DNA from: Clavaria fumosa
Taxonomy: Eukaryota > Basidiomycota > Agaricomycetes > Agaricales > Clavariaceae
Assembly (NCBI GenBank): GCA_951802425.1
Contig: OX637795.1
Span: 3,638,501 to 3,702,500 of the forward strand
Length of the DNA: 64,000 bases
Direction of reading: 5' to 3'
Shown here piece after piece: positions 3,029-49,411 of the stretch (positions are counted from its first letter, which is position 1; each line of letters starts with the position of its first letter). The position numbers and the translations under genes are program-made. Below the pieces are notes generated by a model. The model saw nothing but the letters and a program-made list of their open reading frames with translations, searched no databases and was not told the origin of the DNA.

Positions 3029-6000
3029 CTACTCCACGCAGGCACTCCATCTGCACTCTGCTCGAGGGCACCTAGGCAGTGCCCTCCATGACTCCACACC
3101 TTGCAACTCAAGGTAATGGTCCAGAGCTGCTAGCTCTTTGACAGCTCCCAAGTTGTATCCCTGAGGTTCCATTGAACCTCGCATTCCAGGTGGCAGCCTT
3201 CCCACCTATGGCCAATAATGGTGTCTACTAGCCATTCCTCCTTTGGGTCCACACCAAAGTCATAAAAGACTTTCACTTCACGATGCAGGAACAATGCGTC
3301 ATCGTTCAGCTCATGTCACTGCAACCGGCTGACATGGAATGTTGGGTGGATTCTCCTTGACTTTAGCAAGTTGCAGAGCTCCAGCTCATATGTCGATGAT
3401 TCCGGTCTACATGACCATATTGGGTAAGGCCCAATAAACTTTGGCATGAGCTTTCTAGCTTGTTTTTTAGGGAGATTCAAATTCCCCATTGAGAGGTAGA
3501 CTAATTCTCCATTGAGAGGTAGACTAATTCTCCCTCTCTAAACAGGTGCTCTGCCTGTCTATGCTGGTTAGCATAAAACGTCTTGTGGACACAACTTTCT
3601 ATAATCACATTGTGCGCCATTGCAAGGTTGAGCATGGCTTTCTCCGTGAACATCCTTACACCTCTGGGCACCACCCGGAGGTCGTCTGGCAACTCTGCCA
3701 TCATCTGGGGCATGTACCTCAAATGGGGCAAACCCTGTCAACACACTTATTGACATGTTAATGGCAAATTCGACCATTGGGATTCACTCTGCCCAATCTG
3801 TCTGGTCCAGTTGGACCACAGATCGGAGGATCTGAGACATGGATTGGATCGACTGTTCTGTCACTCCATCCGTCTGTGGATGGAAAGCTGTGGACATCCG
3901 CAGCTTAACACCGAGTAGTTGGTGTGTTTCCTGCCAGAAGGCAGATGTAAGTCTCAGATTGCAATCAGACACAATCAATCCTGGCAACCCATGTAGTCTC
4001 ACTACATGAGCCAGGCTAGCTCTGCTGCCATTACCAACATGGTAACTGGTACTAGGTGTACCAGTGAAGTGAGGTGGCAGATCACCACCCAGAGGTAGTC
4101 CACCTCTTTTGACATAGGAAATGGACCTACGAAGTCCATTCCTATTGATTCCCAGGGCTGCCTGGGGATCAGAAGGGTGTGTAGAAGCCCTTGCGGCTTC
4201 TGCGGGAAAGTCTTGCTCGTCTGGCACATGCCACATGACGAGCAAAGCTTATTAATGTCTTTAGACACCGATGGCCACCAGTAGTAATGGTGGACATAAT
4301 CCATCATTATCCGTGACCCCATGTGTCCTAGGACCGCATGGGCTTCCTGGATTACTATTCCAGGGATACTTTTCCCTTCATGAAGGGTACAAGGCATGCA
4401 GAGCACCTCATTTCCCTTTTTATTCTTGGTGAAGATCAGGTCATCCCTGATCTTAAAACCAGTGTAGTTTCCTGGTTTTTCCAAAATTATTTTGAACAGG
4501 CAATCCTGTTCATAGCCATCACAGATGCTTTGCCACACCCCACTATCCCCCCCTTCCATGCAGGGCCTTAAGGGCATGAGCATCTCGTCCCTCACATCCC
4601 CATCCACTTGGGGCACAGGCAGCAGTTGCTCCTGCTCGGTCTCCTGGTCTGCGGCAGGTGTGCGTACTCGTAGTGCACGCACCTCCTCCAGGCATCCACA
4701 GGGCAACTCGTCCCCTTCAGGGTCAAGGCAAACATCCACCTTCATGTACTCGTGATCCAGATGAATCTCATCAGTTGTGTCACTCATATGGTAATGCGAA
4801 AGGCCATCTGCAACTTTGTTGTGCTCGCCTTTAATGTAAGTGATGGAGTAATCAAACCTCTCCATATATTCCATCCACCTGGCCTGCTGGTCAGACAAGT
4901 GCATTTGGTTCTTAAAGAACCCCAGTGCTTTGTGGTCTGTGACCATGTTGATTCATCTCCCAAGGAGTTTATCCTCCCATTTCTGTAGTGATTTGACAAT
5001 TGCTAAGGCCTCCCGGTCCCAAGTTTTATAACTAAACTGGGCTGGGCTGAACCTTTTAGACATAAACCCCACTGGACGGCAGGTTTCCCATGTCTTTCCC
5101 TGGCCATACATGGCCCCTACACCCAACACTGAGGTGTTGCACACAAGCCATATTGGCTCCTGTACTGCCACATCTACTGGGTGTAATATTGGTGTTTTAC
5201 ATACCAATGCCTTAATCATCTCCATGCACTTGTCATGGAGTGGTCTCCAGTGAAATGTTCATGTTTCACTACACAGACTGGCCAAGGGGCCAGTATAAGC
5301 AGACAGATCAGGCATGAACTGTCTGATGTACTGTACTAATCTGAGGAACCTCTGTACCTCATTAATGTAGTGTTGCTGCAGTCCAGTTTGGTCCGGTTCT
5401 TGACCAATATTGTCGAACCCCGAACTGGACTTAAGGTCCGGTTCAGGCAAATTCTCGAACCTTGAACCCGGTTCTGGTCCGGTTCGAGGTTCACGAACCG
5501 GACTATTACCTAATTTGGTAATGGTTCGACCAATTTTGGCCCCCTCGAACCTGAAAAACGGTTCGGTTCAGCCATCGACTGAACTTTGAACCGGACTTTG
5601 GTCCGGTTCACAAAAGTTCAGGTTCGAACCCTGGTTCAGAACCGAACCACAGCAACACTACATTAATGCTTGTCGGTGTTTTCCAGTTATGGATTTTATC
5701 CATTTTATCCACTGTAACATGGATTCCTTGGGCATCTATAATATGCCCTAAGCAATCTACGCTCTTCGCATATAGCGAGCACTTCTTCTTGCTCAAGAAA
5801 CGGCTTGTGCCTTTGAGGGTCTCAAAGACCATTTTTAAGTGACACTCATGGTCCTCCAAGGTCTTGGAGAAGATGAATACATCATCTAAGTACACATGCA
5901 CATACTTTCCCAACTGATGATGAAATATGTGTCATCAGGTGCTGGAAGGTAGCAGGGGCAATACAATCCCCTATCTGCATCACCTGTGAGAACATGGTGC

Positions 6001-9914: not shown

Positions 9915-12900
9915 CTACTCCTCACAATAGGTGAAGAACCATGCATCTGCCTCAAGTTTTGTGTTGCGGATAAGTTTGATCTAGGAAACAAAGGGTGTAT
10001 AATTGGTTAATGATGATGAAGACTGATCTACCTCCGATGCGCTTCGACCTTTCTTTACATAGTATGTTTTGCTGACTATGTACAAAAGCATGAATAAGCC
10101 AGATCCATGGAGAGAAAAGGATGGAGTATATCCCACCGAAGTCTTTGCTCAACTGTTCCTGCTGCTCCATGTCCTGTGCATACTTGGCCTTGAAATAGTG
10201 TAGCACTACAGTCAGATTAAGGATCTATGAACAACATACCTTCAATTTTTCATGTTCCCCCTTAAGCTGCTCCATGTCCTGTGCATACTTGGCCTTGAAA
10301 TAGTGTAGCACTACAGTCAGATTAAGGATCTATGAACAACATACCTTCAATTTTTCATGTTCCCCTTTAAGCTTCTGCATGTCCCGCTCATACTCGGCCT
10401 TGAAAGATTTAAGAAATACAGTCAGATTAAGGATCTATGAACAACATACCAACTTTTGTTCCAATCCTTTACGTTTCTCTTCAATCTGTAGGTCCTGCTT
10501 GACCTTGGTTGGGATCACGAGAAGAAGCAATCAGCATCAGATTTTGGAAGTGAGAGTAAAAGGTAACAACATACTTGCTGAACATGGAGAGCATATGCAA
10601 TTAGGTCAGACCACGAAGTAAATTGTCAATTGAAGAAAGACATATATTCCTAAGGTGCAGAGCAAGCTCGACTGCGAAAGGGGGACATACATTCTAGCGG
10701 TTGAGGATAACGTGTTCAGGCCATGGTTGCAAATGCAAAGAATGCGATAACATACCGGCTGGAGCTAGAGAGGAACAATAAGGTCACAAATGCAGAGAGC
10801 GCCATGTCTACCTACACTCTGGAGTGAAGGGGGAGCACAATGGGTCGGATCACAAAAATGACTGCAAAGAATGGCATGACACACCTTCTGAAAGTGGAGA
10901 GCAGGGAAAATGGGTCGGTTGATGAAAGCAAGGGCAAAGGGAGGAACAACATACAACCTGAAGGTGGAGTGGGCACGATGGGGTCAGATAATTAAAGTAA
11001 CTGCAAATGGGAGGAACGACACACATACTGAAAGAGGGGGGTGAGATCACGAAGGCAACTGTGAAGGGAGGTATGACATACAGACTGAGAGAGCGCGATG
11101 GCATCAAATCACAAAAATTAACTGAGAAGAAAAGAACGACACACAGCCTGAGGTTCAGAGCAGATCAGATCGCCAAAAAAAAAAAAAAGCCAAGGGGAGG
11201 AACGACGTACAGCCTGAAGGTGCAGAGCAAGCGCGATGGGGTCAGATCACGAAACCAACCGCAATGGGGGGAACAACGACGTACAGCCTGAAGGTGCAGA
11301 GCGAGCACGATGGGGTCAGATCATGAAACCAACCGCAACGGGGGGAATGACGTACAGCCTGAAGGTGCAGAGCGAGCGTGATGGGGTCACATCACGAAAC
11401 CAACCGCAACAGAGGGAATGACATACATACTGAATGCAGAGCGAGCGCGATGGGGTCAGATCACAAAACCAACTGCAACGGGGGAAACGACGTACAGTCT
11501 GAAGGTGCAGAGCGAACGCGATGGGGTCAGAACATGGAACCAACCACAAAGGGGGGAACGACGTACTTCCTGAACGTGCAGAGCGAGCGCGATGGGGTCA
11601 GATCACGAAACCAACCGCAAAAGGAGGAACGACGTACTTGCTGAACGTGCAGAGTGAGCGCGATGGGGTCAGATCACGAAACCAATCGCAAAAGGAGGAA
11701 CGACGTACTTGCTGAAGGTGCAGAGCGAGCGCGATGAGGTCAGATCACGAAACCAACCGCAAAGGGGGGAACGACGTACATGCTGAACGTGCAGAGCGAG
11801 CGCGATGGGGTTAGATCACGAAACCAACCGCAACGGGGGGAACGACGTACAGCCTGAAGGTGCAGAGCAAGCGCGATGGGGTCAGATCGCGAAACCAACC
11901 GCAGCAGGGAGAATGACGTACAGCCTGAGGGTGCAGAGCAAGTGCGATGGGGTCAGATCATGAAACCAACCGCAACGGGGGGAACGACGTACATGCTGAA
12001 CGTGCAGAGCGAGCACGATGGGGTCAGATCACGAAACCCACCGCAACGAGGGGAACGACGTACAGCCTGAGGGTGCAGAGCGAGCGCGATGGGGTCAGAT
12101 CACGAAACCAACCGCAACGGGGGAACGACGTACTTGCTGAAGGTGCAGAGCGAGCGCGATGGGGTCAGATCACGAAACCAACTGCAAAGGGGGGAACGAC
12201 GTGCTCGCTGAAGGTGCACAGCAAGCGCGATGGGGTCAGATCACGAAACCAACCGCAAAAGGGGGAACGACGTACTTGCTAAACGTGCAGAGCGAGCGCG
12301 ATGGGGTGAGATCACGAAACCAATCGCAAATGTAGGAACGACGTACTCGCTGAATGTGCAGAGCGAGTGCGATGGGGTCAGATCATGAAACCAACTGCAA
12401 AGGGGGGAACGACATACAGCCTGAAGGTGCAGAGCGAGCACGATGGGGTCAGAACATGAAACCAACCGCAACAGGGGGAACAACGTACTTCCTGAACGTG
12501 CAGAGCGAGCGCGATGGGGTCAGATCACGAAACCAACCGCAAAGGAGGGAACGACGTACTCGCTGAAGGTGCACAGCAAGCGCAATGGGGTCAGATCACG
12601 AAGCCAACCGCAAAAGGGGGAACGACGTACTTCCTGAACGTGCAGAGCGAGCGCGATGGGGTCAGATCACGAAACCAATCGCAAAAGGAGGAACGACGTA
12701 CTTCCTGAAGGTGCAGAGCGAGCGCGATGGGGTCAGATCACGAAACCAACCGCAAAGGGGGGAACAACGTACTTGCTGAACGTGCAGAGCGAGCGCGATG
12801 GGGTCAGATCATGGAACCAACCGCAACGGGGGGAACGACGTACAGCCTGAAGGTGCAAAGCGAGCGCAATGGGGTCAGATCACGAAACCAACCGCAAAGG

Positions 12901-15900
12901 GGGGAACAACGTACTTGCTGAACGTGCAGAGCGAGCGCGATGGGGTCAGATCATGGAACCAACCGCAACGGGGGGAACGACGTACAGCCTGAAGGTGCAA
13001 AGCGAGCGCAATGGGGTCAGATCACGAAACCAATCGCAAAGGGGGAACGACGTACTGGCTGAAGGTGCAGAGCGAGTGCGATGGGGTCAGATCACGAAAC
13101 CAACTGCAATGGGGGGGAACGACGTACAGTCTGAAGGTGCAGAGCAAGCGCGATGGGGTCACATCACGAAACCAACCGCAAAGGGGGGAACGACGTACAA
13201 GCTGAAGGTGCAGAGCGAGCGCGATGGGGTGAGATCACGAAACCAACAGCAACGGGGGGAACGACGTACTTGCTGAAGGTGCAGAGCGAGCGCGATGGGG
13301 TCAGATCACGAAACTAACCGCAAAGGGGGGAACAACGTACAAGCTGAAGGTGCAGAGCGAGCGCGATGGGTCAGATCACGAAACCAACTGCAACGGGGGG
13401 AACGACGTACAGTCTGAAGGTGCAGAGCAAGCGCGATGGGGTCAGATCACGAAACCAACCGCAAAGGGGGGAACGACGTACAGACTGAATGTGCAGAGCG
13501 AGTGCGATGGGGTCAGATCATGAAACCAGCCGCAAAGGGGGGAACGACGTACTCGCTGAAGGTGCAGAGCGAGTGCGATGGGGTCAGATCACGAAACCAA
13601 CCGCAATAGGGGGAACAACGTACTTGCTAAACATGCAGAGCGAGCACGTTGGGGTCAGATCACGAAACCCACCGCAACAGGGGGAACAACGTACAAGCTG
13701 AAGGTGCAGAGCGAGCGCGATGGGGTCAGATCACGAAACCAACCGCAACGGGGGGAACGACGTACAACCTGAACGTGCAGAGCGAGCGCGATGGGGTCAG
13801 ATCACGAAATCAACCGCAAAGGGGGGAACGACGTACTCGCTGAAGGTGCACAGCAAGCACGATGGGGTCAGATCACGAAACCAACCACAACGGGGGGAAC
13901 GACGTACATACTGAACGTGCAGAGCGAGCACGATGGGGTCAGATCACGAAACTAACCGCAAAGGGGGGAACAACGTACAGTCTGAATGTGCAGAGCGAGC
14001 GCGATGGGGTCAAATCACGAAACCAACCACAATGGGGGGAACAACGTACAGCCTGAAGGTGCAGAGCGAGCGCGATGGGGTGAGATCACGAAACCAATCG
14101 CAAATGTAGGAACGACGTACTTGCTGAAGGTGCAGAGCGAGTGCGATGGGGTCAGATCATGAAACCAACTGCAAAGGGGGGAACGACATACAGCCTGAAG
14201 GTGCAGAGCGAGCACGATGGGGTCAGAACACGAAACCAACCGCAACAGGGGGAACAACGTACTTCCTGAACGTGCAGAGCGAGCGCGATGGGGTCAGATC
14301 ACGAAACCAGCCGCAAAGGGGGGAACGACGTACAGCCTGAAGGTGCAGAGCGAGTGCGATGGGGTCAGATCACGAAACCAACCGCAACAGGGGGAACAAC
14401 ATACAAGCTGAAGGTGCAGAGCGAGCGCGATGGGGTCAGATCATGAAACCAACCGCAAAGGGGGGAACGACGTACAGCCTGAAGGTGCAGAGCGAGCGAG
14501 ATGGGGTCAGAACATGAAACTAACTGCAAAGGGGGGAACGACGTACTTGCTGAAGGTGCAGAGCAAGCGTGATGAGGTCAGATCACGAAACCAACTGCAA
14601 TGGGGGGGAACGACGTACAATCTGAAGGTGCAGAGCAAGCGCGATGGGGTCAGGTCACGAAACCAACCACAACGGGGGGAACGACATACAGCCTGAAGGT
14701 GCAGAGCGAGCGCGATGGGGTCAGATCATGGAACCAACCGCAACGAGGGGAACGACGTACTTGCTGAAGGTGCAGAGCGAGCGCGATGGGGTGAGATCAC
14801 GAAACCAACCGCAACGGGGGGAATGACGTACTCGCTAAAGGTGCAGAGCGAGCGCGATGGGGTCAGATCACGAAACCAACCGCAACGGGGGGAACGACGT
14901 ACTTGCTGAAGGTGCAGAGTGGGTGCGATGGGGTCAGATCACGAAACCAACCGCAAAGGGGGGAACGACGTACTCGCTGAATGTGCAGAGCGAGTGCGAT
15001 GGGGTCAGATCACGAAACCAGCCGCAAAGGGGGGAACGACGTACAGCCTGAAGGTGCAGAGCGAGTGCGATGGGGTCAGATCACGAAACCAACCGCAACA
15101 GGGGGAACAACGTACTTCCTGAACGTGCAGAGCGAGCGCGATGGGGTCAGATCACGAAACCAACCGCAAAGGGGGGAACGACGTACAGCCTGAAGGTGCA
15201 GAGCGAGCGAGATGGGGTCAGAACATGAAACCAACCACAAAGGGGGGAACGACGTACTTCCTGAACGTGCAGAGCGAGCGCGATGGGGTCAGATCACGAA
15301 ACCATCCGCAAAAGGAGGAACGACGTACTTGCTGAACGTGCAGAGTGAGCGCAATGGGGTCAGATCACGAAACCAATCGCAAAAGGAGGAACGACGTACA
15401 GCCTAAAGGTGCAGAGCGAGTGCGATGGGGTCAGATCACGAAGCCAACTGCAAAGGGGGGAACGACGTACTTGCTGAAGGTGCACAGCAAGCGCGATGGG
15501 GTCAGATCACGAAACCAACCGCAAAGGGGGGAACGACGTACTCGCTGAAGGTGCACAGCAAGCGCGATGGGGTCAGATCACAAATCCAACTGTAAAGGAG
15601 AGGAACGACGTACTTCCTGAAGGCGTGGAGCAAGCACGATGCGATCAGGTCGGAGCGTCACAGTACAGGAAGGAACAACATACCAACTGTAGGAGGAAAG
15701 GGGCGCGGTGGGGTGAGACTGTCGACGTGACTATAAAGGAGTAACGTACCCACTGAAGATGGAGAGTGGGCGGAACGGGGTTAGATCTCCAACTCGGTTG
15801 CAAAAGGAAGAGCAAACATTCTGATAGTGGATATCCAGTGAGATGGTGTAAGATCCTGGGCGCCATGGCGGGGTAGGAGGGGACGTACAATCTGACGGTG

Positions 15901-16180
15901 GATAGCGGGTGCACATAAATGAGATTATGGACGTGACTGTGAGGAACGACATACTATCTGAAGGTGGAGACTCGGTCAGAATGTCAACCGAAACGAGAAA
16001 GGAAGACCATACCTCCTGAGTCTGGAGAGCAGGTGAGACGATAACGGATAATGGAGTGCGAAAAGCGAGATATTGGATCAGAACATGGACCGCACTGCAA
16101 AGGGAGGAACGCCATACTGCCTGCAGGTGGATGCCAGGTGAGGTAGTGTCAGCACTTCCAAAGCGGGAGCGACAAACCAT
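9915..16180 (-). CDS. Coiled-coil protein encoded by about 80 single-codon exons plus six longer exons
   Basis: Minus-strand spliced gene, unrecognised product. Exon 1 ends exactly with an ATG (16178-16180) followed by GTTTGT. Every next exon I can define is 3 nt, framed by CAG and GT(A/G)YGT. Triplets at 16118, 16013, 15955, 15889, 15818, 15750, 15684 and 15614 (low coordinates) are separated by unrelated introns of 55-102 nt with CTNAY branch motifs; those from 15542 to 11211 lie in the 71-bp array; a diverged stretch follows from 11145 to 10575. Longer exons: 10450-10503, 10345-10398 and 10240-10293 (18 codons each), 10137-10188, 10032-10075, 9915-9980 (ends EE, TAG). All junctions keep phase; the total is 187 codons. 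The protein begins MAEIINWLERQAQEAEARQR. The 80 single-codon residues are 19 Ala, 15 Gln, 9 Glu and 8 Arg plus others, with no stop; the next exons are KLKGEHEKLK-like coiled coil. A putative exon at 10628 lacks a GT and was left out. One 5' site (12205) is GC. Splicing is inferred. Confidence 0.85.
10137..10503 (-). repeat. 105-bp exon-intron tandem modules
   Basis: Four modules with upper exon ends at 10188, 10293, 10398 and 10503. Each is an 18-codon exon (the first is 52 nt) plus a 51-nt intron that starts GTATGTTGTT, has CTGAC and ends in CAAG. The second and third introns are almost identical, and exons read AKYAQDMEQ.., AEYERDMQK.., VKQDLQIEE... They show that this gene also grew by duplicating exon and intron together. 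Confidence 0.9.
11082..15616 (-). repeat. 71-bp tandem array: 68-nt intron plus 3-nt exon per unit
   Basis: About 62 homogeneous units. On the minus strand each reads GTACGT (rarely GTATGT), a C/T-rich stretch, CTGAC, a pyrimidine tract, TTCAG, then a variable triplet. Triplet low coordinates: 15542, 15471, 15400, 15329, 15258, 15187, 15116, 15045, 14974, 14903, 14832, 14761, 14690, 14619, 14547, 14476, 14405, 14334, 14263, 14192, 14121, 14050, 13979, 13908, 13837, 13766, 13695, 13624, 13553, 13482, 13411, 13341, 13270, 13199, 13128, 13056, 12986, 12915, 12844, 12773, 12702, 12631, 12560, 12489, 12418, 12347, 12276, 12205, 12134, 12064, 11993, 11922, 11851, 11780, 11709, 11638, 11567, 11496, 11427, 11356, 11285, 11211. 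The intron part is near constant while the triplet takes at least twelve codons (GCT, CAA, GAA, CGA, CTT, ACT, TAT, CAT, GTT, TCT, CCA, ATT). Confidence 0.93.
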
Positions 16181-16272
16181 CTGAAGGTGAAATTCCTTTG
16201 CGATGCGTAGCTTCGACAAGGGAGAGACTGCACAGAGATTGAGATCGATAAGAAGAAAGGCCGAAGCTGAGG

Positions 16273-16278
16273 TTTATA
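16273..16278 (-). promoter_or_regulatory. TATA box of the single-codon-exon gene
   Basis: TATAAA on the minus strand, 93 nt upstream of the ATG that ends exon 1. The intervening leader is pyrimidine rich (cttcttatcgatctcaatct), as is common near fungal transcription starts. Inferred from position only. Confidence 0.5.
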
Positions 16279-16488
16279 TTCGATCGTTTCGCAGGGTTCC
16301 CACGGCTGCTACATCAGCAAAAGTGCATAGTCCAGGCCTTGTCAGGTGACCTTGGTGATGAATCTGCACCACTTATATACCGCAACATGTATCTAAGACA
16401 AAGACGCGGGGGTACTACTAAGTAACGTGTGATAATTGGGTTCGCAATATTTTGAAGTAGATGGGAGTTTTGGTGCAAGGATTGCCTT

Positions 16489-28859: not shown

Positions 28860-29590
28860 GTAATAAAATATATGTCTGGGGTTTGGCCCTTTGTTCTCGG
28901 ATTTGCATGGCATTTCATAAGTTAAAAGATTGAAATTTGCTGACTGGATAGTATGGACGGCGCTTTCACGACAGTTTGCCCAACCAAGTTCTCCCAGAAA
29001 TAAACTTCATCTTGAAGTCAGGTTCTGTATATGCTGTCAACGGTACGCTAATCACTGGTTAGATAGAGGTCTTTGAATAAGAAGAGTGCTTACATATGTT
29101 CGATCCACAGGTATTTCTGACCATGCGCCAAAAATCCCACTGAGCCTATCGCAGAATCCACCTCAAAGGATGTGGTGCTTCTTGTCATAAGACAAATATG
29201 GGCTCTTACAGCTGGCTCATCCACATCTACTAATGTGTCCCAATTTGAATTTGGTTCGGGATAGAACTAGAAGGACATTTGTCACATGCATTATTTGACC
29301 ATTGCTAAAGAGATGGGGAACAAACCTTGGCCTTTATTAGAACCTTCAGACAATCCCCCCTGTCCTGGTCATCTACCAAAATGCCTAGTTGAATTACTGA
29401 TCTATGAGTGATTTCCTGGTTGGTGTTCATGCCTCCTTGAGGCGGAGGCACAGGTTTGTCATCACCATTGTTAGAGTTCACTATGGACCCAACAGCAGGT
29501 TATTATCACCATCCAGTCAGATGATTTGTGACTTTCACCCAAAAATCAGTGCAAAACAGGTGATGGGTGATTTCTAATCACCATTAAAAT
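28860..29590. other. Unassigned AT-rich spacer
   Basis: No ORF of note and no clear repeat. It lies between the gag-like gene and a tandem array. Confidence 0.5.
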
Positions 29591-29593
29591 CAA

Positions 29594-29978
29594 GGGATAT
29601 TCACTAGATAAGATTGAGTTATATAATACACCCCTCAATATGGTTGATATTAAACTAGGGGATATTGGGTTGTACAAATCACTCTTTACAACAAGGGATA
29701 TTCAACATGATAAGATTGAGTTATATAAATACACCCCTCAATATGGTTGATATTAAACTAGGGGATATTGGGTTGTACAAATCACTCTTTACAACAAGGG
29801 ATATTCAACATGATAAGATTGAGTTATATAGTACACCCCTCAATATGGGTGATATTAAACTAGAGGATATTGGGTTGTACAAATCACTCTTTACAACAAG
29901 GGATATTCAACATGATGAGATTGAGTTATATAGTACACCCCCCAATATGGGTGATATTAAACTAGAGGATATTGGGTT
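29594..29978. repeat. 102-bp tandem array, about 3.8 units
   Basis: Units begin gggatattca at 29594, 29695, 29798 and 29900 (101-103 bp). Because 102 is a multiple of three, the plus strand stays open for most of the array (DIKLEDIGLYKSLFTTRDIQ repeats), but the first units differ by indels that shift the frame. I treat it as non-coding. Confidence 0.85.
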
Positions 29979-30249
29979 GCCTGCAGGTGAAATTGGTGAG
30001 TGGGCCATATGTAGGACATTTAGGCCAAACAAGGGCACAACTACTATACATGGAGAGGGCAGGAGGGTAGCAACACAAAATACAGATGCAAGGCTGGTGG
30101 AGGGACAACAAATGAGAGCAAGGAGGGATGACATATGCAAGGGAGGGCAAGAGAGGAGGCAGAGGAGCAGGGAAAAAGAGGTCTTAAGTGAAATAAGTGA
30201 AAAGCAAGCACTAGGGTGAAAAAGGAAAGAAGCAGAGGATGAGATGTGG

Positions 30250-31622: not shown

Positions 31623-33524
31623 ATGTCGCGCTACCCACAGCTGGGTCAGCGAGAGCCAATGGGCCGGATGGGTCCGTTCGGATGGATGGAACCGCCCCAG
31701 AAGGAGCGGGAGATTACTCGGGAGGTGTCCCCGAGTTCTACAAACTACCAGAGCGATGTATTACATTGCTACCTCGTGATGATACGAGATAAAACCTCGC
31801 TATTGCCTGAGGCAATAGCTGAGATTAGGGGGATTAAGATTGACCCCCCTGAGCTTTATGACGGACAAGATGACCTCGTCGTCTGGGAAAGGTGGCTCGA
31901 TGGCCTCCTTAATTACTTCTACTTCTATAGAGTAGTTGGCCCGCAGTTGGAGCACCAACGCGTTATGCTAGCGGGGTCACGTTTAAGCGGAATAGCCGCT
32001 ACTTGGTATACCCAAGAAGTAACGGGTCTATCCTGTGCTCCTCGAAGGTCCACCTTCGAGGAATTGATAACCGCTATGTTTAAGCGGTTCCTGACTGAGG
32101 TAACAGCGCAGAAGGCAGTGGATGCCTTCTATCAGGTGAAGTTTACAAAGGCGAAGGGCACCTTGGGCTTCTGGAACGAATTGGCCCAGGCGGCGGAGAG
32201 AATGCTCACCCCGCCTGACGCCGGTACGATGAAAAGGCAGTTCCTTAACGGACTGCCTAACGAGATGGTGGGGGCCATCTTCAAAACTTGTGCGATTAGC
32301 GTCGAGTTATCCTCGGTTGAGGATATTATCGACGCTAGTCGCCAAGTGGAAGTGACCCTCCACTACCTCCAGCAGCGGAGGGCGGTGCCTTCGGTAGGGA
32401 ACCAGGCAGGTCCCAAAGGAAACCCGCCTACAGGCAGAGTGCCTGTGGGGCAGAGGTTTGTGAGACTGTGGCCGTATCGGCCGCACACAGACCGTAGGCC
32501 AGGGGAACCTGTTCCCCTGCAGATCAACCGCGCGCGAGACGAGCACGTGCAAACCGGAGGAAGCAAACCCCGGCTAGAACCGCCTAAGGCGGTGCCCAAG
32601 ATTGGGGTACGAGGCGGAGAGGAGCGGAAAGCTCCTCTAACATGCTATATGTGCGGAAAAGCAGGGCACTACGCGAATGTGTGCCCTCAGTCACAGCGAA
32701 AGCCAGAGGCTTTGAGGGGGAATGTAAGGAACTACGCCTTACAAGAGGAGCCGGGCGAGTTGGAGCCCGAGGAACCACCGGAAACACCGGCGGTTGAAAG
32801 CGAGGAGCCAGAGGGTGAAGCCCTACCGGAGGAAGTCGCGGAAGACGACTACGCTGGTCGCGGGGACCAGTACGATTCGGACGAGCTCTTCGTCCTTGAA
32901 GAGCTCGAGGAGGAGGCGGAAAGCGACCAGGTCGCTGGAATCCGGGAATTAGAAGAGGACGAAGTCCTCTACACGACAGAAGTACGCGTCGGCCATGTCG
33001 ACGACAGGCCATTTCGGGCGCACGTCCGGAAGGAGCGGACAGGATCGCGCCCGGTAGTGACAAAGGAGGCTAGGCAATGCCTCGCGGCCTACATCACCAT
33101 GAACGGTGTAAAAGCGTATACGCTTTTCGATTCTGGAAGTACCCCGGACCTGATGAGCCCGGACTTTGCCCGGGTGACGAAGGTACCAACCTTCCAACTG
33201 GATAATCCAGTTCCTATCCAACTCGGCTGTATCGGCAGCCGATCGACGATCACATGCGGATGCTGCGTAGCGGTGGATTTGGGAGGAATACTGGTGGAGG
33301 ACCAGTATTTTGATATAGCGAACATCGACTGCTATGATATCATAGTCGGAACGGCGTTCATGTATGACCACCGTGTGATACTGGATGTGCACCGACGTGC
33401 AATCCAGATTGGTGAAGGGAAGGGAAAAACCCTTCAGGCGATGTCGCCCAGTGAGGAAACGGAAGCATTACGCGTCCGTATATCGGCTAAGAATGCGCCG
33501 AGGAAGGGAGCTCGAAAGAGCTGA
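31623..33524 (+). CDS. gag: Ty3 gag-protease polyprotein
   Basis: 633 codons as listed from ATG 31623. Capsid-like region about residues 75-250 (FWNELAQAAERMLTPPDAGT), which belongs to the retrotransposon gag family; CCHC knuckle CYMCGKAGHYANVC at about 32643-32684 binds RNA; a long acidic linker (EELEEEAESDQ) follows; aspartic protease near 33105-33330 with active-site FDSGSTPDLMS. The first 55 residues overlap another open frame (31592-31792) that is the better conserved continuation of ORF1, so the true start or a frameshift between ORF1 and gag is unsettled. It ends TGA-CTA, in frame with pol. No separate pol start exists. Confidence 0.88.
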   Translation: MSRYPQLGQREPMGRMGPFGWMEPPQKEREITREVSPSSTNYQSDVLHCYLVMIRDKTSLLPEAIAEIRGIKIDPPELYDGQDDLVVWERWLDGLLNYFYFYRVVGPQLEHQRVMLAGSRLSGIAATWYTQEVTGLSCAPRRSTFEELITAMFKRFLTEVTAQKAVDAFYQVKFTKAKGTLGFWNELAQAAERMLTPPDAGTMKRQFLNGLPNEMVGAIFKTCAISVELSSVEDIIDASRQVEVTLHYLQQRRAVPSVGNQAGPKGNPPTGRVPVGQRFVRLWPYRPHTDRRPGEPVPLQINRARDEHVQTGGSKPRLEPPKAVPKIGVRGGEERKAPLTCYMCGKAGHYANVCPQSQRKPEALRGNVRNYALQEEPGELEPEEPPETPAVESEEPEGEALPEEVAEDDYAGRGDQYDSDELFVLEELEEEAESDQVAGIRELEEDEVLYTTEVRVGHVDDRPFRAHVRKERTGSRPVVTKEARQCLAAYITMNGVKAYTLFDSGSTPDLMSPDFARVTKVPTFQLDNPVPIQLGCIGSRSTITCGCCVAVDLGGILVEDQYFDIANIDCYDIIVGTAFMYDHRVILDVHRRAIQIGEGKGKTLQAMSPSEETEALRVRISAKNAPRKGARKS

Positions 33525-33527
33525 CTA
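33522..33527 (+). promoter_or_regulatory. UGA-CUA readthrough signal between gag and pol
   Basis: The gag stop TGA is followed by CTA, and the same frame stays open for 54 codons into the RT region. UGA CUA is the short context known to promote ribosomal readthrough in fungi (Ustilago) and animals. The decayed copy keeps the same TGA CTA at 6550-6555. No ATG occurs in the pol frame upstream of the RT core. Confidence 0.7.
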
Positions 33528-36500
33528 CACTCGGGCCCCCAGGATGCGGGTGAGCCCTGGAAGGGGGGAGAGGCTAACGCCTCTGTAAAGATAGACGACG
33601 CCTACCTCGAAGGCAGGCGTGAGTACTGGTTTAACCAGTATGCTGAGCTCTTTGGGGGAGTTCCCCCCAGACTGCCGCCGTTTCGGGTGGTGAACCACTG
33701 CATACCCTTAATAGACGAAAAGCAAGTCTATAATTATTACCTGCCTCGGTGTGCTGAGGCATTTAAGGAACAATTCCTTGAGAAAGTGAACCGTTATATT
33801 ACTAACGGTTGGTGGGAAGCAGGAGTGGCATCGCAAGCAGCTCCTATGTTATGCATACCAAAAAGCAGCCGGAACCTGCTGCTACGGACAGTCGTGGACT
33901 GTCGGAAACAGAATGCGAACACAGTACGGGATATTACCCCGTTGCCTGATCAGGATCAGATCAGGCAGGACGTGGCTAGAGCCGCGTATAGGTCAAAGAT
34001 TGACCTATCGGATGCGTACGAGCAAGTACGCGTAGAGCCTGAGGACGTGTGGAAGACGGCGTTCGCAACCGTCTTGGGCACCATGTTCTCACAGGTGATG
34101 CAGATAGGGGATTGTAATGCCCCTGCTACCTTCCAGCACCTGATGACGCATATATTTCGTCATCAATTGGGAAAGTACATGCACGTGTACTTAGACGATG
34201 TATTCGTCTTCTCCAAGACCCTGGAGGACCATGAGCATCACTTAAAGACGGTCTTTGAGACCCTCAAAGGCGCAAGCCTTTTCTTGAGCAAGAAGAAGTG
34301 CTCGTTATACGCGAAGAGTGTAGATTGCTTAGGGCATATTATAGATGCCCGAGGAATCCACGTCACAGTGGATAAAATGGATAAAATCCATAACTGGAAA
34401 ATGCCGACAAGCGTTAACGAGGTGCAGAGGTTCCTCGGATTAGTACAGTACATCGGACAGTTCATGCCCGATCTGTCCGCTTACACTGGCCCTTTGGCTA
34501 GTCTGTGTAGTGAAACGCGAACGTTTCACTGGAGACCACTCCATGACAAGTGCATGGAGATGATTAAGGCATTGGCGTGTAAAACGCCAATATTATGCCC
34601 GGTAGACGCGGCAGTACAGGAGCCAATCTGGCTCGTGTGCGACGCGTCAGTATCGGGCGTAGGGGCCATGTATGGCCAGGGAAAGACATGGGAAACCTGC
34701 CGTCCGGCGGGGTTTATGTCTAAAAGGTTTAGCCCGGCCCAGTTTAGTTACAAAACCTGGGACCAGGAGGCCTTAGCGATTGTCGAATCGCTACAGAAAT
34801 GGGAGGATAAACTCCTCGGGAGACGAATCAACGTGGTCACAGACCACGAAGCGCTGGGGTTCTTTAAGAACCAAATGCGCTTGTCTGGCCGGCAGGCCAG
34901 GTGGATGGAATATATGGAGAGGTTTAACTACTCCATCACTTACATTAAAGGCGAGAGCAACAAAGTTGCGGATGGCCTTTCGCGTTACCATATGAGTGAC
35001 GCGACAGATGAGATTCATCCGGATCACAAGTACGTAAAGGCGGACGTTCGCCTTGACCCTGAAGGGGACGAGTTGCCCCGCGGACACCTGGAGGAGGTGC
35101 GCGCACTACGAGTACGCGCACCTGCCGCGGACCAGGAGACCGAGCAGGAGCAACCGCCGCCTATGCCCCAAGCGGACAGGGATGTGAGGGACGAGACGCT
35201 CGTGCCCTTAAGACCCCGCGTGGAAGGGGGGGATAGCAGGATGCTGCAAAGCATCCGTGACGGCTATGAACAGGATCGCCTGTTCAAAATAATTTTGGAG
35301 AAACCGGGAAACTACACCGGTTTTAAGATCAGGGATGACCTGATCTTAGCTGAGAATAAAAAAGGAGACGAGGTGCTCTGTGTGCCTCGTACCCTTCATG
35401 AAGGGAAAAGCATCCCTGGGAGAATAATCCAGGAAGCCCATGCAGTCCTAGGACACATGGGGGCGCGGATAACGATGGATTACGTCCGCCATTACTACTG
35501 GTGGCCATCGGTGTCTAAAGACATTGATAAGTTTTGCTCGTCGTGCGGCGTGTGCCAGACGAGCAAGACTTCCCCCCAGAAGCCGCAGGGGCTTCTACAC
35601 ACCCTTCCGATCCCCAGGCGGCCCTGGGAATCAATAGGAATGGACTTCGTAGGTCCATTTCCTATGTCGAAAGAGGTGGACTACCTCTGGGTGGTGATCT
35701 GCCGCCTCACTTCACTGGTACACCTAGTACCAGTTACCGTTTTGGTAACGGCAGCAGAGCTAGCCTGGCTCTTCCTAACCCATGTAGTGAGACTGCATGG
35801 GTTGCCAGGATCGATTGTGTCCGATCGTGATCCGAGATTTACGTCTGCCTTTTGGCAGGAAACACACCGACTACTCGGTGTCAAGCTGCGGATGTCCACA
35901 GCTTTCCATCCGCAGACGGATGGAGCGACGGAATGGTCGATCCGATCGGTGGTCCAACCGGACCAGACAGACTGGGCGGAGCGAATCCCAATGGTCGAAT
36001 TCGCCATTAAAGTGTCAATAAGCACGTCAACGGGGTTTGCCCCGTTTGAGCTCACCTATGGGTACATGCCCCAGATGATGGCAGAGTTGCCAGACGACCT
36101 CCGGGCGGTGCCCAGAGGGGTACAGATGTTCACGGAGAAAGCCGCGCTCAACCTTGCAATGGCGCACAACGCGATTATAGAAAGTCGCGTCCACCAAACG
36201 TTTTACGCTAACCAGCGTAGACGGGCAGAGCACCCGTTTAGAGAGGGAGAATTAGTCTACCTCTCAACGGAGAACTTGAATCTCCCTAAAAAACGAGCTA
36301 GAAAGCTCATGCCGAAGTTTATTGGGCCATACCCAATACGGTCATGTAGACCGGAATCGTCTACATACGAGCTGGAGCTCCCTGACTCGCTAAAGTCGAG
36401 GAGAATCCACCCGACGTTCCATGTCAGCCGGTTGCGGCGACATGAACCAAACGACGACGTGTTGTTTCCGTGTCGTGAAGTGAAAGTCTTTTATGACTTT

Positions 36501-36737
36501 GGTGTGGATCCAAAGGAGGAATGGCTAGTAGACGCCATTATTGGCCATAGGTGGGAAGGCCGCCACCTGGAATGCGAGGTTCGATGGAACCTCGGGGATA
36601 CGACCTGGGAGCCGTACATGGGGGTCAAAGAGCTGGCTGCTCTAGACCATTACCTTGAACTACAAGGTGTAGACTCATGGAGGGCGCTACCTAGGCGCCC
36701 TCGAGCAGAGCGCGGACGGAGCGCACACGCAGAGTAG
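33525..36737 (+). CDS. pol: Ty3 pol: reverse transcriptase, RNase H, integrase, chromodomain
   Basis: Read as a continuation of gag after TGA; 1070 codons to TAG 36735. RT: LLRTVVDCRKQNANT, SKIDLSDAYEQVRV, active-site YLDD at about 34188-34199. RNase H: WLVCDASVSGVGAM, then VVTDHEALGFF. Integrase: HAVLGHMG..CSSCGVC zinc-binding region, catalytic Asp in GMDFVGPFP and IVSDRDPRFT, catalytic Glu at 35931-35933. The seven codons following TEWSI in copy A are missing, in a helix next to the active site. Chromodomain at about 36505-36640 (EEWLVDAIIGHRWEG.., TTWEP), which targets integration to modified histones in chromoviruses. The enzymes copy the RNA into DNA in cytoplasmic particles and insert it in the nucleus. 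Confidence 0.92.
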   Translation, partial: LHSGPQDAGEPWKGGEANASVKIDDAYLEGRREYWFNQYAELFGGVPPRLPPFRVVNHCIPLIDEKQVYNYYLPRCAEAFKEQFLEKVNRYITNGWWEAGVASQAAPMLCIPKSSRNLLLRTVVDCRKQNANTVRDITPLPDQDQIRQDVARAAYRSKIDLSDAYEQVRVEPEDVWKTAFATVLGTMFSQVMQIGDCNAPATFQHLMTHIFRHQLGKYMHVYLDDVFVFSKTLEDHEHHLKTVFETLKGASLFLSKKKCSLYAKSVDCLGHIIDARGIHVTVDKMDKIHNWKMPTSVNEVQRFLGLVQYIGQFMPDLSAYTGPLASLCSETRTFHWRPLHDKCMEMIKALACKTPILCPVDAAVQEPIWLVCDASVSGVGAMYGQGKTWETCRPAGFMSKRFSPAQFSYKTWDQEALAIVESLQKWEDKLLGRRINVVTDHEALGFFKNQMRLSGRQARWMEYMERFNYSITYIKGESNKVADGLSRYHMSDATDEIHPDHKYVKADVRLDPEGDELPRGHLEEVRALRVRAPAADQETEQEQPPPMPQADRDVRDETLVPLRPRVEGGDSRMLQSIRDGYEQDRLFKIILEKPGNYTGFKIRDDLILAENKKGDEVLCVPRTLHEGKSIPGRIIQEAHAVLGHMGARITMDYVRHYYWWPSVSKDIDKFCSSCGVCQTSKTSPQKPQGLLHTLPIPRRPWESIGMDFVGPFPMSKEVDYLWVVICRLTSLVHLVPVTVLVTAAELAWLFLTHVVRLHGLPGSIVSDRDPRFTSAFWQETHRLLGVKLRMSTAFHPQTDGATEWSIRSVVQPDQTDWAERIPMVEFAIKVSISTSTGFAPFELTYGYMPQMMAELPDDLRAVPRGVQMFTEKAALNLAMAHNAIIESRVHQTFYANQRRRAEHPFREGELVYLSTENLNLPKKRARKLMPKFIGPYPIRSCRPESSTYELELPDSLKSRRIHPTFHVSRLRRHEPNDDVLFPCREVKVFYDFGVDPKEEWLVDAIIGHRWEGRHLECEVRWNLGDTTWEPYMGVKELAALDHYLELQGVDSWRALPRRPRAERGRSAHAE

Positions 36738-39518: not shown

Positions 39519-40395
39519 TTACTCCACCAGCAACGAACTCCGAGTGTGGAAAATGGACAATCCGCGCTGTTGCTAGGCTATGTAGTTACCATCCTGACGG
39601 TAGCAGCGTCTGACTCTGATCCCTGTTGTTATTCCATTGTCCCGTAGTAAGTCCTGCAACGTATCTCCAGGACATTCTCCGTAGCTACCATCAATACTCC
39701 AGGTCGCTGGAAACGCCCCGGACTCATAGTATATATACCTACCTACTTCGTAGAGTATTCTGCAGTCCAGATACCGCCCTCGTATACCCATGTACACCCC
39801 TCCCGTATACCCCCGAACTCCCTCGCACTTCTGTCCCTCTGTCCCTCCGTATCTCTGCACCTCCGTAATCCCGTCCGACTCCCCATCTCCTGTCCCTCTG
39901 TCTATCTCCGCACCTCCATCCTTTCCGCCCGCCACCTTGTAATTTGTATCATGTCTAATCTGACCCTTGTCCTCTGTCTCCTACGTCAGTTGTGCTAATT
40001 CCTGACTGACCCCTGACCGACTCCGGACCAATTCTGAACCAACTCTGGACCATCTCCCAATCCGTCCCCGACAACCCGCACAATCCGTCCGACCTCCGGA
40101 AACCGTCTCCAAACTCCGGAACTCCGAACTCCATCTCCACCCCCCCCTGTCCGTCCCTCATCTCAAGTCCAACCCGGATAACTCACCCGAGCACCGGACC
40201 CGAGATCCCGAACTCCCGCAACTCCGAAATATGGGACACACAGGACTCAGTAAGGGCGTTGTTTCAATATGTTCGCCAAAGTCCCGTCCGAACCCCGAAG
40301 TCCACACCCGGACATCCTGGACACCCCGGACCCGAACTCTGAACTCCGACCAGACTTCACCCCGACCCTCCGAGCATGCACGTAACAAGACGCAC
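39519..40395. other. C/T-rich spacer, right flank of the Ty3 element
   Basis: No gene seen. From about 39780 on, imperfect words like ctccgaactcc, tgtccctctg and gaccgactccgg recur, resembling the left flank at 30340-30580. Confidence 0.55.
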
Positions 40396-40551
40396 AGGGC
40401 ATGGTGTGCAAGGGCGAAAGATGCACGGGGCATGGTGTGCAAGGGCAAAAGACGCATGGGGCATGGTGTGCAAGGGCGAAAGACGCATGGGGCATGGTGT
40501 GCAAGGGCGAAAGACGCACGGGGCATGGTGTGCAAGGGCGAAAGACGCACA
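40396..40551. repeat. 31-bp minisatellite, 5 units
   Basis: Units ggggcatggtgtgcaaggg(c/..)aaagacgca(c/t), starting at 40396, 40427, 40458, 40489 and 40520. Two or three substitutions among units. Open on both strands by chance of composition. Confidence 0.9.
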
Positions 40552-45509: not shown

Positions 45510-47526
45510 GTGACTCATTTCTGACTGCATCCAGTACCAGATCCATAACAGTTTCACAAGATCAATAAAGTGATCGTAGTACTTAGGCTTAGAGAACTTT
45601 CGCTGTAGGAGAACAGGTCCAAGATAAAGCGCCCAGAATGACCATGAGTCGGCAGTGCAGGCAGAACGGTCACGAGCGATATTGGGAGGGTGTGCACAAA
45701 ACGCAGAAGGCAGCGTAGCGCCAGATGCTGCTGTCGCCTCTCCGATTGCTTCCCAAACGGCCTTCTGGAGGTGATAAGACTCGCAGCCTTGATCTAAACC
45801 CTTGAAGTCACCTGTCCAGAGTGATATCAAGTTTGGCACGAGGTTCTCCCATATGATATGCATGAAATCGTAAGGGAAGGAGGATGGGAAAGTCAGTGAG
45901 GAGAGATAGCTGAGGATAGGTATGCCTTTAATTCCAAATAATTTGGAGAGTCGTTCTGACTCCATCTGTGTTGATGCTAGCTGCACCTGATGTCCCTGTC
46001 CAAGCATCTCCGAATGCATTCATAACGGAAGGTTGTTAGCATCATACTTCTGGATGGCAGAACGGGAATGTCGGATATCGGGGTGGCAACTTCGGTCCAG
46101 CGGAACATAACATGTGTTTCCTCTTTGGTTAGGCGCACGGACTCCAATAATTTTGCAAGCCCGGCAGGGCAAATACCTGTTGTGGCCCTTGATGTTTAGA
46201 AGCATAGATATTGAGGGAATATCACCAGACATGATGATGGCATGAGCACGTAGCGCAAAAATAGCCAATTGTTGAACATCGAAAGCACGGATGCCTACTG
46301 CTAATTTCATCAATTCCTCCACGGCTGGCCACAAGAATGAGTCCATGTCCTTTGGCTTCTTTGGCCCAGGAACAACACCTAAGCAGAGTATGTACTCTTT
46401 GCGAAATTGGATCTCTGGAGGGAGATTGTAATTAAAGATGATGAGAGGCCATGTCGTTGCTTGGCGGCGGCGGAATGGTGTGAAGCCATCCGTGGAGAGT
46501 CCCAAGGCAATATCCCGCGGGTCACAAAGGTAGGTGTGGGGCAGCTCCTGCCCATCAACGACGACGTGCTTCCCAAGAAGATTAAGATAAATAGACCCAT
46601 CGAAAATGTTGTTACTAATGTTTGGTGAATGTTGACGTTTGCTATGGTACTTCATTTGCAAGGCAAGATCAGGGTTTCGGAAAAGTGCAACCAAACAAGG
46701 GGCTAGAGGGACATAAAAGAAAACCTTTCGAGGTCGTCCCTCAGTATCGCATCGTGGGGTGTCACAATAAGGGCAGCTAGTAAGAGATGCATGCAGACCA
46801 ACAAAGCAACAGCAGTCGTATATGACAGGGTTGAGACCAGAGATAAACGCAACCCGAGACCTTGTCTCCTTCCAGCCCGGCAAAAGGGTTGATGCAAATA
46901 TGAATGACAATTTCTCGAACGTGCTGTCTGTCAAGTAATCCCTGACTTTCAAAGCAAATGCTCAGATCATCAGCTGAAAGAAGAATGAGATGATGACCAA
47001 TGTATTATATGAGCGACTCACCAGATGTTGCCAGTTCGCGTTTGAAACTTTCACCAAGCTCGTCCCAGAGATCCAGTCTGGAACTCCCTCGATATGATGT
47101 CTCATTATCAGTCCCCCCCATACGGTCATCACATGAGCTCATGTTGTCTTCTCCACAACTCCCTTCATCGCTCTGATGATCTACATAAACATCACGACTC
47201 CGACGTCTGGAGATGTCCGACATCACGGCATTGACAAGGGCTGATGTCCGATTCTCAAGGTCAAGCTCTGTGCCCTCGTCATGGCTATGCATCCATGCTG
47301 AATTGTTATGGTCTAATCCATGTGTATTGGCATCCAGCGGTATGGCCTCCACATGATTTTCCAATGCGTGATGTGTGCGATGTGGTTGTTTGACATGAGC
47401 TGGACGGACGTATGGGGAAGTGGCTTTGAGCCTGGGCGGACCCCGCAGCTGGCGATGCCGGTACTCTGTGCTAACACTAACCAGCTGCTGGCAACATAGA
47501 CAGAACACCTTGCTTGTCTTGCCCAT

Positions 47527-48879: not shown

Positions 48880-49410
48880 TTCCAGACATGCATGCACACA
48901 TGTGTGCATGTATGGACATGCATGGACATGTATGTACACACATGTGCATCTGTGTACATGTGTGCCCATTCATTCACATGCATGAGCAATGAATGTGCAT
49001 ATGTGTCCATGCATGGGCACATGTGTCAATATTGGCCCTGTGTGTGCAAATGTGTGCTAATATATGGGCAAGCCTATGTGCAAGCTTATGCCAATTTGTG
49101 TAAGCTTATGCTAATATATGTGCAAGCTTATGCCAATCTGTGCAGAATTATGCTAATATATATGCAAGCTTATGCCAATTTGTGGAGAATTATGTGCAAG
49201 TTTGTGTAGCATTATGCTTATATGTGTGCAAACTTATGCCAATCTGTGGAGAATTATGTGCAAGTTTGTGTAGCATTATGCTTATATGTGTGCAAGCTTA
49301 TGCCAATTTGTGCAAGCTTATGCTAAAATATGTGCAAGCTTATGCAATCTGTGCAGAATTATGCTAATATATGTGCAAGTTTGTGCAGCATTTTGCTTAT
49401 ATGTGTGCAA
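48880..49410. repeat. Minisatellite: acatgcatg-type and 21-bp units
   Basis: 48880-49020 is built from catgcatg/acatgtgt words. 49060-49410 consists of about 16 units of 21 bp of the type tgtgcaagcttatgccaattt with variants (agaattatgctaatata, tagcattatgcttatat). No stop appears in one plus-strand frame because 21 is a multiple of three (QAYANLC heptads), but this does not indicate a gene. Confidence 0.85.
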
Positions 49411-49411
49411 G

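Follow-up and report, generated by a model that had tools for sequence, protein, structure and literature searches.

The microexon genes (MEGs) of Schistosoma are described as containing 10-20 short exons, mostly of 15 bp, separated by introns of 0.1-5 kb (PMC10526429). Even smaller exons have been described in isolation: a constitutive 1-nt exon in Arabidopsis APC11 and 3-nt alternative exons are spliced (PMC4674806), Drosophila homothorax is listed among the isolated tiny-exon cases (PMC7392893), and two 3-nt exons were reported in the lipS genes of the ascomycete Dactylellina haptotyla (PMC5639578). These cases, one of them fungal, indicate that exons of such sizes can be spliced; the cited accounts give one or two per gene and no run like the one described here. 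Trichoderma Xlr2, also fungal, has a single microexon that is included or skipped by condition, and the 2024 abstract on it states that functional microexons had not previously been described in filamentous fungi (PMC11121469). Here we analyze a locus of the basidiomycete Clavaria fumosa that lies in a window of 64,000 nt (the whole stretch of DNA that was analyzed, positions 3,638,501 to 3,702,500 of contig OX637795.1) and in which an apparent 71-bp satellite makes up most of a chain of 80 base triplets. The pattern itself, 80 triplets in frame between splice signals, is confirmed, and it quite probably belongs to a protein-coding gene in which, by predicted splicing, each codon of the N-terminal part is an exon of its own. 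An earlier sequence-only reading of the window had argued for such a gene rather than a satellite. The evidence added here favours real, or at least selected, exons: there is a second copy of the gene, the triplets are hypervariable, diverged outer introns keep the AG-NNN-GT pattern, and length changes in the exons keep the frame.

Checked base by base on the minus strand from 16180 to 10575 (coordinates are those of the window), each of the 80 triplets lies between [CT]AG and GT or GC, the acceptor before it being CAG or TAG and the donor after it GT, with GC once. The chain begins with ATG (16180-16178), ends with CAA (10577-10575), contains no stop codon and, when concatenated, reads MAEIINWLERQAQEAEARQRQAIQALAEAQATYRVLQRSTLQLTPAQAQEEREARQRQAHAAHQQETYAAAASYVKSPNQ. 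Since the ATG closes the leader exon, 79 of the triplets are strictly internal single-codon exons, so that the earlier count of about 80 holds for the triplets and is one too high for such exons. The 79 gaps between triplets range from 54 to 113 nt and measure 68 nt in 55 cases, which bears out the proposal that the 71-bp repeat is a series of complete minus-strand introns lying 3 nt apart. Only two gaps exceed 80 nt (102 and 113 nt), and because both are outside the inner array, no array unit with another spacer length was missed by the search pattern. Pattern-matching sites inside introns that lay less than 40 nt from the previous site were discarded as decoys before the 80 triplets here, and the 65 of the second copy, were counted. 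As had been predicted, the open frame that starts at the ATG enters longer exons, of 54, 54, 54, 105 and 66 nt, and ends in a TAG at 9917-9915. The conceptual coding sequence amounts to 573 nt including the stop, or 190 residues (564 nt and 187 residues had been given before), with 84 inferred introns; it spans 6,266 bp, of which about 91 per cent would be intron, as had been estimated. The predicted product, laid out as MAEIINWLE...ASYVKSPNQVKQDLQIEEK, would consist of an Ala/Gln/Glu/Arg-rich, helix-prone N-terminal stretch followed by a coiled-coil-like part and a hydrophobic tail. The features are as follows:

16181..16290, minus strand: probable core promoter and leader, with AATATAAACC, then a CT-rich stretch, ending in TTTCACCTTCAG beside the ATG; promoter role judged by appearance only
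16178..16180, minus strand: start codon ATG and end of the leader exon, followed by the donor GTTTGT
15614..16180, minus strand: single-codon exons of the 5′ outer region, M A E I I N W L E; intron lengths 55-102 nt; codons identical in copy 2
11211..15616, minus strand: inner array of units of about 71 bp, each a 3-nt exon and an intron of about 68 nt (GTACGT..CTGAC..TTCAG); triplets hypervariable
10575..11147, minus strand: single-codon exons of the 3′ outer region, A S Y V K S P N Q; intron lengths 54-113 nt; one codon differs in copy 2 (V/A)
10647..10649, minus strand: lost microexon GAA, TTAG-GAA-TATATG, donor GT gone, inside the fused 113-nt intron; by eye
10450..10503, minus strand: 54-nt exon VKQDLQIEEKRKGLEQKL
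10345..10398, minus strand: 54-nt exon AEYERDMQKLKGEHEKLK
10240..10293, minus strand: 54-nt exon AKYAQDMEQLKGEHEKLK; together with a 51-nt intron it forms the unit of the 105-bp tandem repeat
10084..10188, minus strand: 105-nt exon with hydrophobic end ..FGGIYSILFSPWIWLIHAF; donor GTACAT inferred
9915..9980, minus strand: 66-nt final exon (inferred), IKLIRNTKLEADAWFFTYCEE, then TAG; reading and stop alike in copy 2

Copy 2 has the promoter and leader region as well, but lacks 12 bases of the CT-rich stretch. At the lost microexon, copy 2 lacks the acceptor AG too (TTTG-GAA). This microexon, at about 10650, appears to have died in place, its two introns fused and the frame kept; judging by eye, a comparable loss may lie behind the 102-nt second intron. 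A 105-bp tandem repeat at 10161-10450 corresponds to a phase-0 54-nt exon plus a 51-nt intron of the gene, which suggests that the gene also grows by larger exon-intron units. If the inferred last donor is read through, copy 1 stays open to a TGA and copy 2 meets a TAG two codons on. Ordinary coding through the array does not offer a long frame, as the longest stop-free stretch in six frames between 10577 and 15620 is 141 aa. An unspliced 162-aa open reading frame (ORF) across the 5′ outer region (15731-16219) carries a frameshift and stops in copy 2 and is therefore not conserved.

Like the MEGs of Schistosoma, the locus has many short exons, mostly multiples of 3, that could be skipped in frame and are hard to annotate; there are 80 and 65 tiny symmetric triplets in the two copies, all in phase 0. 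Unlike the MEGs, it has 79 internal exons of exactly one codon, introns of about 68 nt and an arrangement that is mostly a tandem array. The N terminus MAEIINWLERQ does not by eye resemble a signal peptide, which may be another difference from the MEGs, a class marked by secreted products and observed alternative splicing. No sequence relationship to MEG proteins was found in a large protein search, within the limits of a method that needs shared 5-residue words and similar length. That schistosome microexons are longer than one codon, as the sequence-only reading stated, agrees with the 6-81 bp given in the body of the cited account and not with the 3-81 bp of its abstract (PMC10526429). No run of single-codon exons was found among the matches listed for the open-access PMC literature on microexons and introns (subscription papers and preprints lie outside it), and within that scope the earlier statement that no gene of such exons is known holds for runs, while isolated 1-nt and 3-nt exons have been described.

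The array introns carry U2-type spliceosomal signals, with a donor, a branch A and an acceptor at each unit. For the alignment of units we considered the 143 inter-triplet gaps of the two copies; 129 of them measured 62-72 nt, and the 112 that fit the consensus (64 + 48) were used, the remainder being dropped for unsuitable length or excessive divergence. All 112/112 aligned units had the acceptor AG and the branch A, and the donor was GT in 110 and GC in 2. In 58/79 introns of copy 1 and 50/64 of copy 2, CTGAC stood 8-45 nt before the 3′ splice site, compared with 3.5 per cent of random minus-strand stretches, and the looser motif YTNAY was found in 75/79 and 61/64 gaps. Intron candidates of chaperonin genes included some with donors such as GTACGC or GTGCGC, a CTGAC-like branch, a CAG acceptor and lengths of about 50-60 nt; they were viewed by eye only, as their collection admitted GC donors and was too loose for statistics. 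Retention of any single intron would produce a frameshift or a stop for 72 of the 79 introns of copy 1 and 61 of the 64 of copy 2. The spliced sequences have no stop in their own frame before the end, whereas stops in the other two frames number 4 and 13 for copy 1 and 3 and 12 for copy 2.

Long chains of such signals were not found in the other DNA scanned. We scanned for the strict pattern YAG-NNN-G[TC]NNG with gaps of 45-115 nt and a YTNAY branch motif, and obtained 43 consecutive units in copy 1 and 50 in copy 2; these chains are shorter than the full set because the scan also demands a G at intron position +5 and the branch motif. Chains did not exceed 3 units in the rest of the window or in 32 other loci (244,145 bases on both strands, of which 236,505 are distinct, as the loci partly overlap), nor in 100 first-order Markov sequences of window size, for which the stricter branch motif CTNAY was used and the gene gave 31. 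Within the gene, spacers of 0-2 and 4-12 nt gave chains of at most 1. Outside the array, where the sequence-only reading had seen the pattern continue in differing introns, the strict scan recovered 9/9 units unbroken on the 5′ side of copy 1 and 5/9 on the 3′ side. Gapped identity of the outer introns to the array consensus was 0.59-0.90, against a mean of 0.72 (standard deviation 0.07) for shuffled sequences, and only two or three of the 17 clearly exceeded the shuffled ones, although several nonetheless look related to the consensus by eye. Since the AG-NNN-GT chain runs through these diverged introns, the pattern is not merely the product of recent copies of one 71-mer.

The genome comprises 48.8 Mb in 17 contigs, and the window lies on one of these, C2, which is 5.04 Mb long. 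Among the named proteins in the 120 rows listed for an HSP60 of this genome, the closest was from Piloderma croceum (88 per cent identity), followed narrowly by many other Agaricomycetes, and one JGI protein was identical to it over 91 per cent of its length; the host is thus most likely an agaricomycete. When the genome was searched for the introns, the outer exons and the C-terminal exons, exactly one further locus was found: copy 2, at C2:3791814-3796993, which shares contig and strand with copy 1 at a distance of 142 kb and has its ATG at 3796993 and its stop at 3791814. It has 65 triplets, a conceptual coding sequence of 507 nt and a 168-residue product, MAEIINWLE ... ETYARAASYAKSPNQVKQDLQIEEK ... 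WFFTYCEE, whose ends are shared with copy 1. An intron query against the whole genome gave at least 109 matches, all at the two C2 loci, although very diverged copies could escape it, and viral contigs scanned with part of the intron gave no match. The two copies lie in a direct segmental duplication about 142 kb apart on C2; in the window it begins at about 9221 and reaches at least 23548, interrupted by gaps. Its pieces are 86-99.5 per cent identical (gaps counted), with the peak in and beside the 5′ part of the gene.

The edges of the two copies are near-identical, and their arrays are not. In the outer single-codon regions we counted 10 substitutions over 1,083 intron positions and 1 over 54 triplet positions; 17 of 18 outer triplets were identical, and both indels fell in introns. 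The order of codons in the inner arrays was no more alike than in shuffled arrays (score 7.0 vs. 8.2 +/- 4.2, p 0.65), a test from which a few units at either end of the array, sharing ETYA.A, were excluded. Because the edges are near-identical while array codons are not colinear and unit numbers differ, it seems that either the arrays were reorganized, in units of one codon and its intron, once the copies had separated, or conversion has since maintained the likeness of the edges. Within a copy, the mean mutual distance of array introns was alike at lag 1 and lag 29. In copy 2, a shift of 6 units was significant for blocks of 5-12 units (p 0 to 0.01, 300 permutations), the best blocks keeping 4/6 codons, and this looks like a recent duplication. 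A candidate block duplication in copy 1, at offset 21 with replaced codons, gave p 0.08 and 0.02 for 5 and 8 units and was discarded, as longer blocks prefer another offset. Assembly error may occur in such a tandem array, though the units are distinct enough to be told apart. Downstream, the longer exons differ in length between copy 1 and copy 2 (54/33, 54/63 and 105/96 nt), with the frame kept and the same TAG used. All internal exons of both copies are in phase 0 and multiples of 3, and skipping, deleting, duplicating or swapping units would therefore still leave an open frame.

The triplets differ from the introns around them in variability. Diversity per site was 0.61 in triplets and 0.105 in introns, in each copy separately, a ratio of 5.8 (bootstrap intervals 5.0-6.8 and 5.1-6.7), and the mean of three adjacent intron columns was never above 0.39. 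Pairwise comparison of flanks, which used 107 units, showed that 84 per cent of the 19 unit pairs with identical 68-nt flanks had the same codon, while 3/19 differed at 2 or 3 bases; among the 39 pairs with flanks one base apart, many also had codons differing at 2 or 3 bases. Linkage of the codon to nearby intron variants was weak and was strongest for a single position six bases upstream. Triplets more diverse than introns would not be expected of a neutral satellite, but would be expected of selection on amino acids combined with recombination that homogenizes introns. None of the 113 array triplets contains AG, while among the outer triplets of copy 1, 6/16 end in G and 3 contain AG; avoidance of AG within triplets would keep competing sites away from the true acceptors. 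More alleles would be needed to test formally for selection, and recombination makes tree methods unsafe for the array.

Taken as a gene, the locus would be expressed as follows. Introns of about 68 nt would be recognized by intron definition and removed one after another, as a donor and an acceptor 3 nt apart could hardly be served at once, and the mRNA would grow codon by codon. The authors of the Arabidopsis 1-nt exon likewise argue for stepwise removal where sites are too close (PMC4674806). Skipping of units would be likely to give a family of shorter in-frame products. One codon and one intron would together form a free cassette, so that unequal recombination could add, remove and reorder residues with the frame intact; recombination would homogenize the introns, and selection at the protein level would keep or create the diversity of codons. 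Such turnover would alter the length and surface of the helix-prone stretch, and the C-terminal 54-nt exons with their 51-nt introns may have grown likewise, with a larger coding part.

Several observations weigh against single-codon exons that are spliced and translated. Ordered removal of more than 80 introns would need high fidelity at each step, and YTNAY is lacking in the scanned range of 4/79 and 3/64 introns. Four introns downstream of the last triplet in copy 1 use AAG acceptors, the borders of the longer exons were set by the analyst, partly with the frame in view, and the last intron was placed by phase and the agreement of the two copies only. The lack of stops, true of the 80 codons as the sequence-only reading stated and of all 145 triplets over both copies, is weak evidence when taken alone (P about 0.04-0.15 under simple nulls). 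One single intron column reaches a diversity of 0.56 and 0.67, as variable as a triplet. The third base of the 113 array codons is T in 60, A in 51, C in 2 and G in none; G is missing even where it would form no AG. Only 14 kinds of codon are used, possibly derived from few founders, and usage in the array is unlike that of an HSP60-type gene of the same genome. Where the longer exons can be aligned between the copies (258 nt), they differ at 7 codons, 6 changing the amino acid and 1 silent, so that these exons give no sign of purifying selection, and the C-terminal stretch as a whole is 86 per cent alike between copies with 54 gap positions, less than its neighbours. The spliced product of copy 1 had no protein match at E<=0.001 in the large protein search, a profile of the two copies had none at E<=0.01, and no Pfam family scored above its cut-off in either conceptual protein.

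Alternatively, the array may be an ordinary satellite derived from one intron that was amplified together with 3 bp of flank, in which case it would be non-coding and AG-NNN-GT a by-product of homogeneity. Tandem Repeats Finder reports a regular 71-bp array here, tandem arrays can expand without selection, the product has no known homologue, and the window is rich in mobile elements. However, the positions of such a satellite should vary evenly and the three bases like their neighbours, whereas the triplets were 5.8 times as diverse as the mean intron position in both copies. The AG-NNN-GT pattern also persists through outer introns that are mostly no closer to the consensus than shuffled sequence (though several look related by eye), and in both copies the frame continues into the downstream exons, which differ in length only by multiples of 3. 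We consider this explanation unlikely.

A real gene could also bypass the array by splicing from the first donor, or from a few outer ones, straight to the last acceptors, leaving AG-NNN-GT as decoys or as recursive (ratchet) sites that help to remove a long intron. AG-NNN-GT resembles ratchet points. Ratchet sites leave no exon, however, and a scan of the gene with spacer 0 found no site with AG abutting GT, the spacer being 3 nt at all 80 sites. A bypass would leave the hypervariability of the triplets amid a homogenized remainder unaccounted for. The absence of AG from the array triplets is what would be expected of real exons, though it might equally stem from a small number of founder codons. 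Recursive splicing is a described phenomenon (PMC6224609; PMC4674806), and every skipping product would be in frame and a short product thus viable; we judge the bypass very improbable nonetheless.

Invasion of a continuous coding sequence at each codon boundary by one introner-like intron, with old codons and new introns, would fit the likeness of the introns, the diversity of the codons, the weak link of codon identity to most neighbouring intron variants, the finding that adjacent introns are no more alike than distant ones, and the existence of introner-like elements in fungi (PMC4457414), but is barely credible, as the intron family was found at two loci only of the 48.8-Mb genome, copies with near-identical edges should share array codons and do not, and the 14 codon types with A or T as third base in 111/113 are unlike the HSP60-type gene. 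Fungal introner-like elements and stwintrons are described at many gene positions (PMC4457414, PMC8469720). The array shares with them a near-identical intron family within a fungal genome; its introns, unlike introner-like elements, were found at two C2 loci only, in tandem and exactly one codon apart, and not in many unrelated genes. They are not stwintrons, as each intron is complete and 3 nt from the next, with no internal intron interrupting an outer one.

Returning to a gene of single-codon exons, the closest likeness in mode of evolution may be the hnwd family of Podospora (het-d/het-e/het-r), in which, as described, WD repeats are homogenized while 4 strongly selected codons diversify (PMC1805685) and repeats are rearranged (PMC2873952). 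In both systems tandem units rearrange and homogenize while few codons per unit diversify. The WD-repeat unit of hnwd comprises about 42 codons, whereas the coding part of the unit here is one codon and the homogenized part is the intron. Homogenization of repeats and excess diversity at given codons were both found here. No NACHT or WD40 domain scored above its Pfam cut-off in either conceptual protein, and neither protein is assigned to the NLR or HNWD proteins. Tentatively, we propose a codon-cassette gene, in which introns would serve as recombination handles for single amino acids and variation at one-residue resolution would be selected for its diversity, with splicing perhaps adding further isoforms. 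By analogy, our guess is that the product could change fast and act in recognition or interaction.

Mobile elements are plentiful around the gene. ORFs of a long terminal repeat-type retroelement are found at 31623-36737 of the window (aspartyl protease, then reverse transcriptase, RNase H and integrase-type domains), and, on the minus strand, a tnp2-family transposase ORF at 46020-46952 and an ORF with an integrase zinc-binding domain at 4002-4946. Other tandem repeats lie at 29576-29979 (102 bp x 4.0, 95 per cent), 40387-40550 (31 bp x 5.3), 49075-49412 (32/64 bp) and 57380-57705 (160 bp x 2.1), and a long GC-rich repeat tract at 50044-50821 has units that are mostly triplets (GCC/GCT-like) and ORFs on both strands.

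If transcripts confirm the predicted splicing, dozens of consecutive 3-nt exons would set a new bulk limit of exon size. The gene would then be a natural substrate for studying intron definition and stepwise splicing, its donors and acceptors being probably too close for simultaneous binding. It would also represent exon shuffling in its smallest form, with single codons gained, lost and exchanged in an unbroken frame. Annotation pipelines would probably call such a gene a satellite, and others may hide in published genomes.

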